Below are positions 124 through 27,263 of a stretch of 27,263 nucleotides of DNA, one piece after another. Made by a program: the position numbers and the translations under genes. The stretch is from a virus. Where the stretch lies: positions 1 to 27,263 of the IMG/VR virus record IMGVR_UViG_3300017749_000104. One strand, given 5' to 3'. Under the pieces are notes generated by a model that worked only from the letters and a program-made list of their open reading frames with translations, was not told the origin of the DNA and searched no databases. Every line of letters begins with the position of its first letter. The stretch's first letter is position 1.

Positions 124-334
124 GAAGTCAGACGAAGAATATAAGAAGGCGGTAAACTCCATTCAAGACGGTGTTCTCGACTTCGCAGAAAGCCACCTCT
201 ACAAGCTCGTGAAGGAAGGCAACCCCGCCGCTACTATCTTCTTCCTAAAGACTAAAGGCAAGAAGCGCGGATATATCGAACGGCAAGAGATAGAGGTAAC
301 CGAGAAGAAGCCGCTCTCCTGGCTCGATGAGTAA
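1..334 (+). CDS. terS: Terminase small subunit, 3' part (gene crosses the circular junction)
   Basis: TerS recognises phage DNA and recruits TerL for headful or site-specific packaging. In this copy the frame is open from the first bases. The ATG at 35 is internal, because across the junction the frame starts at 27130 and gives about 114 residues. The N-terminal part carries a helix-turn-helix (residues ending with SRQTHYAWL), of the type used for DNA binding in small terminases of the phBC6A51-like group. The acidic/basic C-terminal tail ends in SWLDE. The gene overlaps terL by 8 bases, as expected for a translationally coupled packaging pair. Family assignment rests on the HTH, the size and the position before terL. 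Confidence 0.8.
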   Translation, partial: KLDRTDTKKEAMLEALEKSLSIVSTACKMVDISRQTHYAWLKSDEEYKKAVNSIQDGVLDFAESHLYKLVKEGNPAATIFFLKTKGKKRGYIERQEIEVTEKKPLSWLDE

Positions 335-1478
335 ACTCCCCGCGACATATTACCACGTCAGGAACTCAAAGAAACGCATCCAGGTACATCAAGGCGGGAC
401 ACGATCCGGCAAGACGTACTCGATACTTCAAAGCCTCATAGAGCTATGCCACAAGAACAGCGGCCTCGTAGTGACCATCTGCCGAAAGACATTCCCCGCC
501 CTCCGTGCTACGGCTATGAGGGACTTCTTCGAGATACTCGAAAACGAAGACGCCTATAACGTCGAGCTTCACAACAAATCTGAAGCCACTTACCAGCTAT
601 GGGGAAACCTCGTGGAGTTTATTTCCGTTGACCAGCCCACGAAAGTGAAAGGCCGTAAAAGAGATGTGCTCTTCGTGAACGAATGTAACGAGCTAGCATT
701 GGAGGACTGGCGGCAACTTATCCTCCGAACCACGGGAAGAATAATAGTAGACTTTAACCCCTCCGACGAATTCCACTGGCTTTACGACTTACCCAAACGC
801 GATGATTGCGACTTCTTTAAAACCACGTACAAGGATAACCCGTTCCTGCCGGAAAGTGTACTCCTGGAAATTGAACGCTTCAAAGAAGCAGACGAAAACT
901 TCTGGAGGGTGTACGGACTCGGAGAGCGAGGAACAAGCCGAGCGACCATCTTTACCCATTGGAAAGAAATAGACCAAATACCGAATGAATACAAGCTACT
1001 CAACATCGGACTCGACTTCGGATATACGAACGACCCGACCGCCATCGTGCGGGTGTACACCGACGGTCACGGATTCGCGGTCGATGAACTCTGCTACGCA
1101 ACGCGCCTTACTAACTCAGATATTGCAAAAAGCCTCCGCGATAACGGAGTGCATCGATCTGATGTTGTTATATGTGACTCCGCAGAGCCCAAAAGCATCG
1201 ACGAGATACACGGTCACGGATTCAATACTCACGGAGCAAGAAAGGGAAGAGATTCAGTTAGAAGCGGAATCCAGTTCCTCCATTCGCGCCCGCTTCTTAT
1301 CACGTCTCGGAGTGTGAACCTTATCAAGGAACTACGCAATTACAAATGGAAGGAGGATAAGAACGGCAAGCAGCTAAACGAACCAGTAGACTCATTTAAC
1401 CACGCTATCGACGCGATGCGGTACGCGATTACTTTCAACCAAACGAACCCCAACTTTAGGGCATACGCTATCGGATAG
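327..1478 (+). CDS. terL: Terminase large subunit (packaging ATPase/nuclease)
   Basis: 383 residues. TerL powers DNA translocation into the prohead and cuts the concatemer. The N-terminal ATPase has a Walker A motif GGTRSGKT (residues 23-30) and a Walker B DVLFVNE (113-119). The C-terminal RNase H-like nuclease shows GLDFGYT with metal-binding Asp230, a middle CDSAEP segment, and the late FNHAIDAMRY block with Asp362. This arrangement fits the Terminase_3/PBSX-type group. It is compact compared with the usual 400-550 residues, but both catalytic domains look complete. It overlaps terS by 8 bases and is followed by an 83-base gap that holds a promoter for the next small unit. Confidence 0.93.
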   Translation: MSKLPATYYHVRNSKKRIQVHQGGTRSGKTYSILQSLIELCHKNSGLVVTICRKTFPALRATAMRDFFEILENEDAYNVELHNKSEATYQLWGNLVEFISVDQPTKVKGRKRDVLFVNECNELALEDWRQLILRTTGRIIVDFNPSDEFHWLYDLPKRDDCDFFKTTYKDNPFLPESVLLEIERFKEADENFWRVYGLGERGTSRATIFTHWKEIDQIPNEYKLLNIGLDFGYTNDPTAIVRVYTDGHGFAVDELCYATRLTNSDIAKSLRDNGVHRSDVVICDSAEPKSIDEIHGHGFNTHGARKGRDSVRSGIQFLHSRPLLITSRSVNLIKELRNYKWKEDKNGKQLNEPVDSFNHAIDAMRYAITFNQTNPNFRAYAIG

Positions 1479-1496
1479 AAAAAAAAGAAAGAAAAG

Positions 1497-1529
1497 TTTG
1501 GAAACTAAAAGAAAAGTTCCCTATCTTTG
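1497..1529 (+). promoter_or_regulatory. Bacteroidota-type promoter (TTTG-N21-TATCTTTG)
   Basis: TTTG at 1497-1500 is followed after 21 bases by TATCTTTG at 1522-1529, an exact TAnnTTTG -7 element. The spacing is inside the TTG-N17-23-TAnnTTTG range reported for Bacteroides/Flavobacterium primary-sigma promoters. It sits in the A-rich terL-1562 gap, 32 bases before the next ATG. It probably lets the small genes at 1562-1866 be transcribed by unmodified host RNA polymerase. Confidence 0.75.
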
Positions 1530-1561
1530 AGACATCAGAACGAACGGAAAAACAACAAGCC

Positions 1562-1792
1562 ATGAACATTCAAGACGCAAAATTTAAGAAGCAGTTTGCA
1601 GGGGAGTACCGAATCGAAGGAACTTTTAAAGGGAGAGAGGTTGCAATCGAAGCGAGCCGACAAGACAACGGAAGTTTTAGCTGGACAGCGTACGTCGAGG
1701 GTTGCTACGTAGACGGAGACCGAGGATGGACGCTTACCTACCTTAAGCAAGTCGTCCGACTTGGCCCACAGGACTTCTTTTCAAACATCTAA
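1562..1792 (+). CDS. Hypothetical protein, first gene of a moron-like unit
   Basis: 76 residues, no family recognised. It looks like a small soluble beta-rich protein: a basic N-terminus, then alternating polar and aromatic segments with GTFKGREVAIEA (about 20-31), a tryptophan-rich middle (SWTAYVEG) and RGWTLTYLKQVV near the C-terminus. No signal peptide or membrane segment is visible. It has its own Bacteroidota-type promoter just upstream. Its stop overlaps the start of a 24-residue ORF, and a strong terminator follows at 1868. That isolation inside the structural operon suggests a gene expressed independently of the late genes, such as a host-directed or exclusion function, but nothing in the sequence proves this. 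Confidence 0.7.
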   Translation: MNIQDAKFKKQFAGEYRIEGTFKGREVAIEASRQDNGSFSWTAYVEGCYVDGDRGWTLTYLKQVVRLGPQDFFSNI

Positions 1793-1866
1793 TGAGCAAC
1801 GAACCCGAATGGTTTCAAGAGGTGCTTGACCGCACCGAACAAACCGAATCCTTCCTCCTGTCTTAA
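1792..1866 (+). CDS. Tiny ORF, 24 residues
   Basis: The ATG at 1792 overlaps the stop of the preceding gene (TAATG), the same coupling seen at many real genes here. It reads MSNEPEWFQEVLDRTEQTES and four more residues, then TAA at 1864-1866, two bases before the terminator stem. The product is an acidic, helix-prone peptide. It could be a true microprotein or simply translated leader to the terminator. No homology is recognised. Confidence 0.4.
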   Translation: MSNEPEWFQEVLDRTEQTESFLLS

Positions 1867-1867
1867 C

Positions 1868-1891
1868 AGCCCCTTCGGGGGCTTTTTTTTT
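1868..1891 (+). terminator. Intrinsic terminator
   Basis: Perfect stem AGCCCC (1868-1873) / GGGGCT (1878-1883) with a TTCG tetraloop, followed by a run of nine T (1883-1891). It closes the small unit that starts at the 1497-1529 promoter. It would also attenuate read-through from terL into the tail genes. Confidence 0.85.
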
Positions 1892-1942
1892 GCCCTAACT
1901 TTCCGGACGTAAGGAAACCGAACAAAGCAAGTTATTTAAACG

Positions 1943-2437
1943 ATGGAATTACGCCTCCCTCATAGATGGTCGGATCTCACGCTCGGAGAACTGCAAGTAA
2001 TGATGACAAGCGAGAACCAACTCGAACGCATCTCAATTTGCACGGGGCAATCCGTGGACAAGTTGCGGACCATGCCGCAGAAGCTCATAGAAGCCGCTGG
2101 AGCGCATATAGATGAATTACTAACCAAAGAGACCGCACGATTTGAAAAGGTCGTTGAGATGGACGGTAAACGCTTCGGTTTCGTTCCCGATTGGGATGCG
2201 TTCACGGCGGGCGAATGGATTGACCTTGAGAATCACCTCGAAGACTTCTGGAAGAACGCACACAAAGTCATGGCGGTGCTTTTCCGGGAGGTAACTTACG
2301 AACTCGGGGAGGCTTACGAGGTGAAGAAGTACACAGCCAAAGAAGACGCATCGATATTTGAGGAGATGCCCGCCGACCTCGTATCCGGTACGCTGCTTTT
2401 TTTTGGACTACCAGAAACGAACTGCTGCACAGTATGA
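1943..2437 (+). CDS. Probable tail assembly chaperone (gpG-like, zero-frame product)
   Basis: 164 residues ending shortly after a homopolymer T8 run. The opening (LPHRWSDLTLGELQ) and the layout match a Bacteroidota phage family that I take to be tail assembly chaperones: an N-terminal helix bundle, a central KRFGFVPDWDAFTAGEWIDL segment and a hydrophobic GTLLFFG near the end. These proteins coat the tape measure during tail assembly. The last ten residues after T8 look out of character, and downstream frames carry protein-like continuation to 2624, so this ORF is probably the short form of a frameshifted pair. Unusually, it lies about 8.6 kb from the tape-measure gene rather than next to it. 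Confidence 0.6.
   Translation: MELRLPHRWSDLTLGELQVMMTSENQLERISICTGQSVDKLRTMPQKLIEAAGAHIDELLTKETARFEKVVEMDGKRFGFVPDWDAFTAGEWIDLENHLEDFWKNAHKVMAVLFREVTYELGEAYEVKKYTAKEDASIFEEMPADLVSGTLLFFGLPETNCCTV
2397..2404 (+). promoter_or_regulatory. T8 run, candidate translational slippery site
   Basis: The 1943 gene is read here as CTG CTT TTT TTT GGA. A run of eight T permits slippage of tRNA-Phe. A -1 shift enters a frame open to 2595 (beginning WTTRNELLHS). A net -2 or +1 shift enters the frame open to 2624 that carries a convincing C-terminal domain. An indel from sequencing or replication in the homopolymer is the main alternative. Confidence 0.5.
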
Positions 2438-2624
2438 AGTACTCTTTACTGGAGGCAGCGGAGGCAGCGATCCAGTCGGCGAAAAATGGGGGTGGTATCA
2501 CGTCCTCCACGCCCTCGCAGGCGAAGACCTCCTCAAGATGGACAAGGTTACGGAACTCCCTATTCAAGTCGTCTTCCAACATCTCAGTTATTTAAAAGAC
2601 AAGCTCGCACATGATCACGTTTAA
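2403..2624 (+). CDS. Frameshifted C-terminal extension of the tail chaperone (gpGT-like)
   Basis: This frame is +1 (equivalently -2) to the 1943 gene. From the T8 run it reads LDYQKRTAAQYEVLF, a Gly/Ser-rich linker, then KWGWYHVLHALAGEDLLKM and a helical end LSYLKDKLAHDHV. The GW...LA..D..K.D.V...P pattern and the codon usage look like genuine protein, not a shadow frame. It has no good start of its own; the in-frame ATG at 2358 lies deep inside the upstream gene. It therefore probably reaches the ribosome by frameshifting, as in lambda G/GT. Alternatively, part of the join runs through the third frame (ATG at 2434, coupled ATGA, 53 residues to 2595). It ends 14 bases inside the fiber gene. 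Confidence 0.5.
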   Translation: MDYQKRTAAQYEVLFTGGSGGSDPVGEKWGWYHVLHALAGEDLLKMDKVTELPIQVVFQHLSYLKDKLAHDHV

Positions 2625-20181: not shown

Positions 20182-20214
20182 GAGGGAGGCTCAACGGGGC
20201 TTCCCTCTTTTTTT
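20182..20214 (+). terminator. Strong intrinsic terminator at the end of the late region
   Basis: GAGGGAGGC (20182-20190) pairs with GCTTCCCTC (20199-20207), nine pairs with one G-T wobble, around an 8-base loop. It is followed by seven T (20208-20214). It ends the lysis operon 52 bases after the holin stop and 12 bases before the early promoter. Confidence 0.88.
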
Positions 20215-20225
20215 GTCCAAATAAT

Positions 20226-20256
20226 TTTGTGGAATGGAAAGTTTTGTATAGCTTTG
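20226..20256 (+). promoter_or_regulatory. Bacteroidota-type early promoter (TTTG-N19-TAGCTTTG)
   Basis: TTTG at 20226-20229 and the exact TAnnTTTG element TAGCTTTG at 20249-20256, with a 19-base spacer. It sits immediately after the late terminator and 22 bases before the ATG at 20279. It should be recognised by the host primary sigma factor, so it is the best candidate for the main early promoter of the methyltransferase/replication region. Confidence 0.8.
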
Positions 20257-20724: not shown

Positions 20725-20860
20725 GACTAGCGTACACGTACAGCCAACGCAGAACTTTAACCAATGGCAAGAAGAACTCGGAGAAGAGGAACGCTTCCGC
20801 CGATTGATTGACAACTTCAAGGCGGATCTAATCCACGCCTATACAAACCGAAAGCGATGA
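20681..20860 (+). CDS. Small early ORF, 59 residues
   Basis: The ATG at 20681 lies in the 3' end of the previous ORF, and the TGA at 20858-20860 overlaps the ATG of the helicase-methyltransferase gene (20857). The product begins MNSKEKQWARPVCVKTSVHV, then has a Gln/Asn segment and a charged helix (EERFRRLIDNFKADLIHAY). No motif is recognised. The tight overlaps on both sides support that it is translated. Confidence 0.5.
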   Translation: MNSKEKQWARPVCVKTSVHVQPTQNFNQWQEELGEEERFRRLIDNFKADLIHAYTNRKR

Positions 20861-23013
20861 ATTACGACACTTTCATAGAATCAAAAAAGCGCAATTTGCG
20901 AGATGTTGGATTTCACTGTACAGAGTTGAATGAACAGCTTTTCCCGTTTCAACGCGACATAGTACACAAAGCGCTCAAGCGTGGCAAATACGCAATCTTT
21001 GCAGACTGTGGACTGGGTAAAACTTTCATGCAGTTAGAATGGGCTGCACGCGTATCGGAACACGAAAACATGCCCGTGCTGCTGCTTTGTCCGCTTGCAG
21101 TAGGAGCGCAAACCATACGCGAAGCAGAGCGTTTCGGTATTGACGCGCAAAAGTTCCCGAATGGCAAAGTGCAAGTGTTGAATTACGATCAGATAGAACA
21201 CGTAGACCCGCGCAAATTTGCGGGAATTGTACTTGATGAATCGAGCATATTAAAGAATATGCAGGGCAAGATGCGGAACGCAATAATAGACAAGTTTAAA
21301 AACACCGGATACAAACTAGCTTGCACGGCTACCCCTTCTCCAAATGATCCCGTGGAACTTGGTAATCATTCTGAATTTTTGGATGTTATGAAAATGACCG
21401 AAATGAGCGCCATGTACTTTGTCCACGATGGCGGCAACACTAACAAGTGGAGGTTAAAAAAACACAGCGTAGAACACTTCTATCAATGGGTAGGCACTTG
21501 GGCCAGCGTGCTTCGCAAGCCTTCAGATATTGGACACGAAGACGAAGGGTACGATTTGCCGGATCTGAATTTTTACGAGACGACAATAGAAACCGACCAA
21601 CGAAATAACGGGATGCTCTTTAATGAGGTAGCGGTAAGTGCTACTAACTTTAACCAGGAGCTACGACTTACAAAACTGGACCGCATCGAGCAGGCCGTGA
21701 ACACTGTTAACCGAAGTGAAGAGCCTTTTATTATTTGGATACGTCAAAACGAAGAAGGCGAGCTATTGCGCAAGCTGCTACCGGATGCCGTGGAGGTCAA
21801 AGGATCGGATAAAACCGAAGACAAAGAGAAGGCGTTTATGGATTTTGTAAACGGTAAGTTTAGAATCTTAATAACGAAGCCGAAAATAGCTCAGTTCGGT
21901 CTAAACTTCCAGCACTGCCAGAACCAGGTCTTTGCGGCGTTGGACTTTAGTTTTGAAGGGCTTTACCAAGCTATTAGAAGAAGCTACCGTTTCGGACAAA
22001 AGAACGAAGTGAACATATACATTATAACAACCGACACCATGCAAAACGTAATAGAGACTATAAAACGAAAACAAGACCAATTCGAAGAGATGAACAAAGC
22101 AATGACAAGCGTAATAAACGGGCAACACGCGCAAGAAGAAACTAACTATAACACCGAAGACGACGGATGCGAATGGTACGATATACGCAACGGAGACAGC
22201 GTAAAATTGATACAGTTACTCGATGATGAAAGCGTAGGGTTCAGCGTGTTTAGTCCACCTTTTGCGGACCTGTACACTTATTCCAGCTTTGCCGAGGATA
22301 TGGGAAACAGTGCGAACTGGGAAGAGTTTCTCGTTCACTTTGATTTCCTGGTGAGTGAGATTTACCGCATAACGCAAAGCGGGCGAAACGTTGCAGTTCA
22401 TTGCATGGATTTAATGATAAAGAAAGGTGTCGAGGGGTTTCGAGGTATGCGGGACTTTTCCGGAATGATTCGCGAGGCATTCGAGAAGCACGGGTTTATT
22501 TATCATTCTAGAGTAACAATTTGGAAAGACCCTGTGATTCAGATGCAGCGAACAAAGGCCATAGAGCTGCTGCATAAGCAAGTGAAAAAAGATAGCACTA
22601 TGAGCGCGGTAGGTCTCCCGGACTACGTTCTTGTTTTTAGAAAGGACGGCGAACGAAACAACCCTGTAACGAATACAGATCTTCCGGTTGATCTTTGGCA
22701 AAAATACGCTTCTCCTGTTTGGATGGACATAAACCAGACTAACACGCTGCAATACACAACCGCACGAGACAACCGCGATGAAAAGCATATATGTCCTTTA
22801 CAGTTAGATACTATTGAGCGATTGATCCATCTATACACAAATGAAGGAGATGTAGTATTTACTCCTTTCTTGGGTATTGGATCAGAAGCTTATCAAGCTG
22901 TTAAAATGGGGCGCAAGGCTATCGGGTTTGAATTAAAGCCTAGCTACTACCATATAGCACGCCAAAACATGATGAGCATAGTAGAAAGCAAAACACAAAA
23001 AACACTTTTTTAA
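20857..23013 (+). CDS. SF2 helicase - DNA methyltransferase fusion
   Basis: 718 residues. The N-terminal half is an SNF2/SF2-like ATPase: a Q-tip region near FPFQRDIV, Walker A CGLGKT (residues 51-56), DESS as motif II (127-130), TATP as motif III (157-160) and RRSYRFGQ as motif VI (374-381). The C-terminal half is an amino-methyltransferase of beta order: SPPF catalytic motif IV (466-469) comes first, target and linker region next, then SAM-binding TPFLGIGS (669-676) and GFELKPSYYHIARQN. It could modify N4-cytosine or N6-adenine; the target is unknown. There is no nuclease domain and no cognate endonuclease nearby, so a self-protecting orphan modifier is likely. A gap of 20 bases separates it from the next gene. 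Confidence 0.85.
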   Translation: MNYDTFIESKKRNLRDVGFHCTELNEQLFPFQRDIVHKALKRGKYAIFADCGLGKTFMQLEWAARVSEHENMPVLLLCPLAVGAQTIREAERFGIDAQKFPNGKVQVLNYDQIEHVDPRKFAGIVLDESSILKNMQGKMRNAIIDKFKNTGYKLACTATPSPNDPVELGNHSEFLDVMKMTEMSAMYFVHDGGNTNKWRLKKHSVEHFYQWVGTWASVLRKPSDIGHEDEGYDLPDLNFYETTIETDQRNNGMLFNEVAVSATNFNQELRLTKLDRIEQAVNTVNRSEEPFIIWIRQNEEGELLRKLLPDAVEVKGSDKTEDKEKAFMDFVNGKFRILITKPKIAQFGLNFQHCQNQVFAALDFSFEGLYQAIRRSYRFGQKNEVNIYIITTDTMQNVIETIKRKQDQFEEMNKAMTSVINGQHAQEETNYNTEDDGCEWYDIRNGDSVKLIQLLDDESVGFSVFSPPFADLYTYSSFAEDMGNSANWEEFLVHFDFLVSEIYRITQSGRNVAVHCMDLMIKKGVEGFRGMRDFSGMIREAFEKHGFIYHSRVTIWKDPVIQMQRTKAIELLHKQVKKDSTMSAVGLPDYVLVFRKDGERNNPVTNTDLPVDLWQKYASPVWMDINQTNTLQYTTARDNRDEKHICPLQLDTIERLIHLYTNEGDVVFTPFLGIGSEAYQAVKMGRKAIGFELKPSYYHIARQNMMSIVESKTQKTLF

Positions 23014-25060: not shown

Positions 25061-25427
25061 TTCTATTTTTTCGCAGTTCATCCGCTTGCGTGGATCCAAC
25101 GAAGAAGGTTGGGGAAATTGCTACACGTGCGGTCGTTTGAGGCACTATAAGGAAGTAGACTGCGGTCACTTTATCACGCGGGCAAAGCTCGCCACGCGAT
25201 GGAAGGAGGAGAACTGCCAGTTCCAATGTAAGCAATGCAATATGACCGGAGGCCAGCAGTACGTTTTCGGTAAAAACCTCGATGCGCAATACGGCGAAGG
25301 AACGGCGGAAGCCATCCTCATAGAGAGCAACAAAACGAAAAATTGGACCGTTGAAGAACTCGAAGAGAAGTGCAGATACTATCGAAGGAAGGTAAATGAA
25401 ATCAAGGCACACAGAGGACTGGAATGA
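25029..25427 (+). CDS. ninG: NinG-like recombination protein
   Basis: 132 residues. The lambda NinG/Rap family binds branched DNA and aids recombination. A Cys-rich zinc site is evident: CYTC (Cys31, Cys34), DCGHFI (Cys45, His47), then CQFQCKQC (Cys63, Cys67, Cys70), followed by the family GGQQYVFGKNLDAQYGEG block and a C-terminal coiled helix (VEELEEKCRYYRRKV). Length is shorter than lambda NinG (about 200) because the N-terminal extension is absent. It overlaps both neighbours by about 32 bases. Confidence 0.8.
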   Translation: MGIAKTKSKLDSIFSQFIRLRGSNEEGWGNCYTCGRLRHYKEVDCGHFITRAKLATRWKEENCQFQCKQCNMTGGQQYVFGKNLDAQYGEGTAEAILIESNKTKNWTVEELEEKCRYYRRKVNEIKAHRGLE

Positions 25428-25869
25428 ATTCTTAACACGGAATTATTCGAAACTCCTCCACGTTGCCAAACGATGGACGGAGGATCCAGGCGACCTTGTG
25501 CACCATGTTTATTTGCGCTGTATTGATAAGCGATATATGGAGAACCCTTTCGGGTACTTCGTGAAGGCTATGTACTTCGAAGCGACACGCGGAAAATTTA
25601 AGGAACTGTATAAAACAAACGACAATGAACCCCAAGAACAAGCGACCGAAACCGACTGGAGCAAAGCACTCCAGCGCGAACAGCTTGAACTTATTCTGGA
25701 CCGTCTCTCATGGTTCGACAGAACATTATTTGGGCTATATCTCAGCGGATGGAATATGGCTGAAATATCTCGACGGTCTGGCATTGGAGAATCGACCCTA
25801 TATCGCTCACTACACCTTACCCGAAAAACCTTAAAGAATGTTCTTCGTAACAGGACAGAAGAGGACTGA
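25396..25869 (+). CDS. Sigma-factor-like transcription regulator
   Basis: 157 residues. The N-terminal part recalls sigma region 2 (RNYSKLLHVAKRW, then DPGDLVHHVYLRCIDK and NPFGYFVKAMYFEATRGKFKE). The C-terminal part is a clear region 4-like HTH (LDRLSWFDRTLFGLYLSGWNMAEISRRSGI, with recognition helix GESTLYRSLHLTRKTL, about 119-145). It is the size of a compact ECF sigma factor. In this genome it would be made early and may redirect host RNA polymerase to late genes, where I found no standard host promoter. It overlaps NinG and the zinc-cluster gene by 32 bases each. Confidence 0.65.
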   Translation: MKSRHTEDWNEFLTRNYSKLLHVAKRWTEDPGDLVHHVYLRCIDKRYMENPFGYFVKAMYFEATRGKFKELYKTNDNEPQEQATETDWSKALQREQLELILDRLSWFDRTLFGLYLSGWNMAEISRRSGIGESTLYRSLHLTRKTLKNVLRNRTEED

Positions 25870-27130: not shown

Positions 27131-27263
27131 TGGAAGCGGTAAAACTTGACAGAACTGACACTAAAAAAGAAGCGATGTTGGAAGCATTGGAGAAGTCGTT
27201 GAGCATTGTATCCACCGCTTGTAAGATGGTCGATATATCGCGGCAGACCCATTACGCATGGCT
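27130..27263 (+). CDS. terS: Terminase small subunit, 5' part (continues at position 1)
   Basis: The ATG at 27130 overlaps the stop of the upstream ParB-like gene (TAATG) and reads MEAVKLDRTDTKKEA into the frame that continues at position 1. This adds 15 residues before the internal ATG at 35. The TAATG coupling, common in this genome, supports it as the true start. The 3' part and the functional evidence are given in the entry for bases 1-334. Confidence 0.8.
   Translation, partial: MEAVKLDRTDTKKEAMLEALEKSLSIVSTACKMVDISRQTHYAW
27141..27263. repeat. Contig-end direct repeat, right copy (circular overlap)
   Basis: Exact second copy of bases 1-123. Removing one copy leaves 27,140 unique bases. 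The reading frame entering this copy from 27130 continues without a stop into the frame that ends at 334. Confidence 0.95.

Follow-up and report, generated by a model that had tools for sequence, protein, structure and literature searches.

A putative exchange cassette for small genes at the terminase junction of phages with probable marine Bacteroidota hosts

What is a small, self-contained transcription unit doing between the terminase gene and the virion genes of a phage? The question is raised by a 27,263-nt viral sequence (positions 1 to 27,263 of IMG/VR record IMGVR_UViG_3300017749_000104), analyzed here over its whole length and called the window. The initial annotation had recognized in it an exact Bacteroidota promoter (1497-1529), a 76-aa ORF, a 24-aa ORF, and a strong terminator (1868-1891), all of which are present, and had read them as a moron-like cassette.

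The cassette and its setting in the phage genome

An exact 123-bp direct repeat at its ends (1-123 and 27141-27263) shows that the window is a complete phage genome that closes into a circle, with 27,140 bp of unique sequence, and its annotated genes are carried on the plus strand. Since the contig is a complete circular genome, the cassette is located at the border of the early-plus-terminase block and the structural (virion) block rather than within one uninterrupted structural operon. Of the earlier description as a closed cassette inside a continuous structural operon, the closure by an own promoter and terminator therefore stands, while the placement does not. The features of the locus and of the genome around it are as follows.

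327-1478, plus strand: terL, the fixed upstream flank (Pfam Terminase_3, 5e-20; Terminase_3C, 3e-19)
1479-1912, plus strand: whole insert of 434 nt, delimited by comparison with the empty junction of L013 and L014
1497-1529, plus strand: promoter of the Bacteroidota housekeeping-sigma type, TTTGGAAACTAAAAGAAAAGTTCCCTATCTTTG, with TTTG at 1497-1500 and the -7 box TATCTTTG at 1522-1529
1530-1561, plus strand: leader; in other cassettes AGACATCAAACGAAACAAACAGA, common to unrelated phages
1562-1792, plus strand: ORF76, 76 aa, the variable cargo of this phage
1792-1866, plus strand: ORF24 (MSNEPEWFQEVLDRTEQTESFLLS), a coupled 24-aa microprotein, part of the 3' constant end
1868-1891, plus strand: intrinsic terminator AGCCCC-UUCG-GGGGCU-U9, 3' constant end
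1892-1903, plus strand: GCCCTAACTTTC, a terL-site-specific box behind the terminator, holding the -7-like TAACTTTC
1913-1942, plus strand: ancestral junction sequence, the sole remainder in empty relatives
1943-2437, plus strand: downstream structural gene, the other fixed flank (phrog_32199, 6e-11, function unknown)
20185-20256, plus strand: terminator of the structural operon, then a second exact host-type promoter
25396-25869: gene for an ECF-like sigma factor (Pfam Sigma70_ECF, 4e-5; PHROG 1740, 1.5e-8)

The promoter has the layout TTTG-N21-TATCTTTG and fits TAnnTTTG, the consensus of Bacteroidota housekeeping promoters (PMC9723704), which would allow the host polymerase to transcribe the cargo before the late program and independently of it. 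Exact host-type promoters occur only twice in the window, at 1497 and 20226, and the pattern by itself is not rare (0.48 expected; 9 of 100 shuffles reach two). The terminator hairpin has a folding energy of -11.8 kcal/mol and is followed by nine U residues, with a z score of -1.9 for the hairpin alone, and the start of ORF24 overlaps the stop of ORF76 as TAATG. Promoter and hairpin are weak when taken alone; it is the comparison between phages, described below, that places the cassette beyond chance. The box behind the terminator is possibly a transcription restart element. A scan of viral contigs recovered TTTTTTTNGYCCTAACTTTC once per contig in 50 contigs, and in all 43 loci that the scan added to the list it lies at the junction of terL and the downstream gene.

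The hosts are probably marine Bacteroidota: the promoter is of their type, and the portal protein has its nearest relative in Nonlabens phage P12024S from seawater (34% identity). An Rfam scan of the window returned no RNA family. The downstream flanking gene is tail-chaperone-like from its position only. Near the 3' end of this 164-aa ORF there is a T8 run (window 2390-2440; ORFs 1943-2437 and 2358-2624), and in L082 and L076 its counterpart continues in a single frame to 218 aa; the gene may code for a tail assembly chaperone that is extended by programmed frameshifting. Elsewhere in the genome, positions 20857-23013 encode a single protein of 718 aa in which a DEAD/ResIII helicase is fused to an N6/N4 DNA methylase.

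Junction states and constant ends at the terL site

Searching the viral collection with TerL gave 80 relatives whose terL products are at least 83% identical, and the states of the junction were followed on a tree of 78 rows. In L013 and L014 (TerL 95%), only 30 nt, GGAAACCGAACAAAGCAAGTTATTTAAACG, separate the terL stop from the next ATG, and these match window 1913-1942 exactly, which is why the insert is taken to span 1479-1912. An empty junction of 29-30 nt is found in 28 of the 78 relatives, these two included, and the adjacency of terL and the next gene in cassette-free phages, a check named in the initial annotation, is thus observed. Counted as unique sequences, because some contigs contributed more than one locus, 9 junctions are empty, 15 hold a CACGCA filler, and 41 hold a cassette. 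The filler (L020, 6147-6255; also L005, L011, L058, and others) is made up of CACGCA repeats at a spacing of 11 nt behind CGGGnnACCCG and contains no evident gene.

Turnover at the junction is rapid. When the fewest changes are assumed on the TerL tree (78 rows), the cassette must have been gained or lost at least 15 times, and well supported (starred) branches force at least 12 of these changes; the cargo state changes at least 29 times. The state differs even between pairs of phages with terL up to 98.6% identical. Cassettes of types A to C begin immediately behind the terL stop and precede any filler. Those of type D (L035, L038, and L044) instead follow GGAAACC; the one in L038 lies 3' of the filler, and those in L035 and L044 are flanked by the direct repeat GGAAACCAAAC. 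These differing positions argue for several independent insertions. ORF76 itself was found in only two phages among 2.9 million viral contigs, the window's own record and L007. A fixed structural gene present in all relatives, the outcome that the initial annotation had set against its own proposal, is excluded by this distribution and ruled out by the empty relatives. Together, the empty junctions and the rarity of ORF76 support the moron idea, which the recurrence of the same frame elsewhere extends to a shared cassette system.

While the cargo changes, the ends of the cassette are retained. The 58 cargo ORFs from all sites fall into 36 families without detectable similarity, with lengths of 34 to 109 aa (median 74.5; the shortest is truncated at a contig end). 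A host-type promoter, TTG-N17-24-TAnnTT[TA]G, is present in 51 of 54 distinct upstream regions, compared with 0.19 in shuffles, and upstream of the -7 box the sequence varies among phage groups. At the other end, all complete terL-site cassettes of the TerL-based set finish with a GCCCC-loop-GGGGC-T hairpin and then GYCCTAACTTTC; across cassettes the loop of the terminator varies and the stem is conserved.

The 24-aa ORF accompanies differing cargos in 13 of the 41 unique terL-site cassettes and is found at other sites as well; being absent from most cassettes, it is not essential to the frame. Within its main variant, the changes are mostly synonymous, and this, with its recurrence, rules out a chance origin of the ORF. 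In L127 and L133, the same peptide opens an ORF with a different continuation, and at 13604-13945 of L127, a peptide related to ORF24 forms the N-terminal part of a longer protein. To judge from these sequences, a larger gene may have been the source of the microprotein. We also noted that the unrelated cargos of L045 (402-558) and L066 (87-357, both counted from the terL stop) have in common their last codons (NKVIQE) and the nucleotides just behind them, as if recombination had cut within the 3' coding end.

Shared cargos at other sites and in other phages

Other sites were located with the 24-aa peptide and the leader TTTGAGACATCAAACGAAACAAA as queries, so that the loci outside the terL site are biased toward similarity of these shared motifs, while the terL-site set was collected by TerL alone. 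Site 2 lies after the structural operon of window-type phages, where the place corresponding to window 20185-20256 is occupied in L141 and L144 by a cassette of the same family. Site 3 lies behind the major capsid gene, ahead of the next head gene, in a phage group without a terL match (L128-L132, L137, L139, L140, L142, L143, L146, and L147), and further sites are represented by L127, L133, and L145. Site 3 has its own counterpart of the post-terminator box, GTCCGTATTTTAG or AGCCGTATTTTAG (for example, in L131 and L153), again with a -7-like element; from the boxes at the two sites, transcription of the virion genes might start anew.

Eight or more cargo families recur across sites or phage groups, examples being the pairs L066/L146, L092/L137, L022/L128, L059/L129, L047/L130, L115/L144, and L116/L127. 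Pairs with the same cargo at different sites are 84 to 99% identical in nucleotides over the cargo, and their similarity is high from about -40 nt to the terminator and near background beyond; in pairwise sequence comparison, the breakpoints coincide with the conserved ends. In contig 3300048115_000173, which has both site 1 and site 2, the two cargos differ. L142 carries two cassettes in tandem, and L153 has the second of these alone. A search of 198 genomes from a single bacterial order did not detect the leader, and the frame therefore seems to be phage-borne. Among annotated phages, one match to the leader lies inside a gene on the opposite strand and was considered a chance match.

Taken together, these comparisons show insertion and loss of the cassette at a fixed junction, replacement of cargo with retention of the ends, sharing of cargo across phages and sites, and stacking. 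The evidence is drawn from metagenomic contigs, some of which may be chimeric. In one of them, L138 (690-1300), a terL-site cassette runs straight into the early (site-2) genes and skips the virion genes; L138 may have arisen by recombination of one cassette site with another or by deletion, or it may be an artifact of chimeric assembly.

Cargo function and the proposed exchange system

ORF76 evolves as a protein, according to the comparison with its L007 counterpart: the two are 87% identical, 30 of the 43 nucleotide differences fall at third positions, and dN/dS is 0.09. Purifying selection was likewise seen in 12 cargo pairs (dN/dS 0.04-0.33). The initial annotation had recognized no family for the encoded protein, and indeed ORF76 had no significant match in Pfam, PHROGs, PADLOC, PDB, phages, or plasmids; a second viral scan with the two-sequence alignment revealed no further homolog, and the AlphaFold2 model, beta-rich and of low confidence (pLDDT 56), is too poor for fold searches. 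Among 41 cargo representatives, two matched Pfam (one of them a winged-helix, TrmB-like protein), four matched PHROGs of unknown function, and none matched PADLOC, which consists of defense models, making this negative weakly informative on anti-defense proteins. As no cargo matches a known anti-defense protein, their function is argued by analogy: like the archaeal virus genes that share a promoter, the cargos would be host-directed or anti-defense. Proteins that are small, soluble, orphan, rapidly exchanged, and under purifying selection are what is expected of proteins aimed at changing host targets.

On this evidence, we consider it probable that the window cassette represents a moron slot filled by an exchangeable cassette, with cargos that most likely serve anti-defense or other host-directed functions. 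It is unlikely that the cargos are instead superinfection-exclusion or lysogenic-conversion proteins of prophage origin, as in lambdoid morons. A host-type promoter and a terminator of its own within the late region give the cassette the classical layout of such genes, and its turnover is rapid; but none of the 51 distinct cargos has a membrane segment (19-residue hydrophobic), no integrase or repressor was noticed among the window ORFs and family matches, and a comparison of TerL with genome_contigs gave relatives of 37 to 44% identity only, with no close prophage relative and no host named. The absence of membrane segments also disfavors superinfection exclusion of the membrane type among the functions that the initial annotation had suggested. 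A purely regulatory role, in which the cassette insulates transcription at the terminase/structural boundary and the small ORFs are filler, seems to us improbable. The terminator does sit where an early-plus-terminase transcript would reach the structural genes, the phage has an ECF-like sigma factor, and the -7-like TAACTTTC lies within the box; against this, the junction is empty in 28 of 78 relatives, the cargos are under strong purifying selection, and identical cargos are found at other sites where the box sequences differ.

The mode of movement deserves the same scrutiny. Insertion is precise at the terL stop, direct repeats of GGAAACCAAAC surround type-D cassettes in L035 and L044, and there are tandem arrays, as a dedicated site-specific element (integron-like or recombinase-driven) would produce. 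Yet cassettes travel without a recombinase gene, types A to C and type D are placed differently relative to the filler at the terL site, and the cassette ends vary between sites, so we regard such an element as no more probable than the insulator and favor plain homologous recombination. Least probable of all is a role for ORF76 in decorating or assembling the virion, as a dispensable protein that varies among phages: it does lie among virion genes, but the same frame holds 36 unrelated families, is also found beyond the virion region (site 2), and has a separate host-type promoter.

How, then, would an exchangeable cassette work? Its 5' constant end consists of the -7 half of the host-type promoter and an A-rich leader, and its 3' constant end of the intrinsic terminator, often with the 24-aa microprotein; one (sometimes two) small cargo genes lie in between. 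During coinfection, homologous recombination within these short conserved ends (the leader and the terminator region) would let an incoming cargo replace the resident one or stack on it. The leader is likely the 5' recombination arm, although it could be kept for translation instead. Some tail and enzyme genes are common to the phage groups, which may consequently share hosts, permitting coinfection. The host housekeeping RNA polymerase would read the promoter, so that cargo synthesis would start early or go on for as long as the cell contains the phage genome, while the ECF-like sigma factor, a candidate activator, may serve the late genes; the terminator would confine the transcript and shield the virion genes from the cassette. 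Like the other cargos, ORF76 is predicted to be small and soluble and to act on host targets, most likely as an inhibitor of defense systems or of other host functions. More tentatively, and with some doubt, we suggest that exchange could be population-wide: otherwise dissimilar phages, with probably the same marine Bacteroidota as hosts, would draw on one pool of small host-directed cargos in interchangeable promoter-leader/terminator frames, through fixed slots at virion-gene boundaries, with tandem stacking and with the 24-aa peptide as a partner or regulator.

Several known systems resemble this one in part. Morons, a concept of Juhala, Hendrix, and colleagues, are known from lambdoid and other prophages; they are extra genes with a promoter and a terminator of their own, inserted between two genes that adjoin each other in relatives, and most relatives lack them. 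At the sequence level, the cassette has the same adjacency of its flanks in relatives and its own promoter and terminator, and it seems dispensable, being missing from many relatives. It differs in that the promoter-leader and terminator frame is reused with 36 unrelated cargos in otherwise different phages, and in that the window phage, unlike lambdoid moron carriers, has no sign of lysogeny. Integron gene cassettes are promoterless, carry attC, and are moved by IntI, whereas the cassettes described here have their own promoters, occupy several sites, and come without a recombinase gene. In the acr-aca loci of Pseudomonas phages, a variable small gene is followed by a recurrent gene in one slot between virion genes, much as in the cassette, but an Aca helix-turn-helix regulator would be far larger than the 24-aa peptide, which many cassettes lack.

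The PeSLs of T4-like phages, whose original accounts are reportedly those of Arbiol in 2010 and Comeau in 2014, come close to the mode of action proposed here. PeSLs are composite promoter-terminator mobile regulatory cassettes, whose short conserved promoter/terminator sequences are thought to drive the shuffling of small genes (PMC4503421). The cassettes are similar in having such sequences flank shuffled genes and in the terminator-promoter composite formed by the tandem cassettes of L142, and dissimilar in their Bacteroidota promoter type, in their phages and hosts, in their single-cargo slots at defined junctions, in the distinct 5' and 3' constant ends, in the recurrent coupled 24-aa ORF, and in a cargo pool that spans phage groups. 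The window is a 27-kb phage with a Bacteroidota promoter, not a T4-like phage with early sigma-70 promoters; to judge by its sequence, the cassette probably works like a PeSL and yet is not one. Archaeal viruses carry many unrelated small accessory genes under one conserved promoter region, which led to anti-defense genes (PMC11065993); the present cassettes, known from sequence alone, belong to Bacteroidota phages, have a constant terminator end as well, and occupy few slots rather than a dispersed early regulon. The SAS/ESAS sequences of cluster K mycobacteriophages are short conserved sequences at the starts of small genes, which their authors suggest as possible recombination targets (PMC3203893), but SAS are tied to the translation starts of many genes per genome, while the cassettes form a promoter-plus-terminator frame at few sites. 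No description of this cassette system was found in the literature searched, which, given its partial coverage, is weak evidence.

The promoter-leader and the terminator form a sequence handle that retrieves at least 36 uncharacterized small-protein families from phages of a major marine bacterial phylum, with purifying selection wherever it could be tested. If the cassettes do form an exchange system, the promoter-leader could be used as bait for new anti-defense families, as a promoter already has been with success in archaeal viruses (PMC11065993). The locus also makes testable how phages may swap accessory genes without harm to their virion operons, since the sequences reveal the site in its empty and its filled form as well as the cassette ends and the breakpoints.
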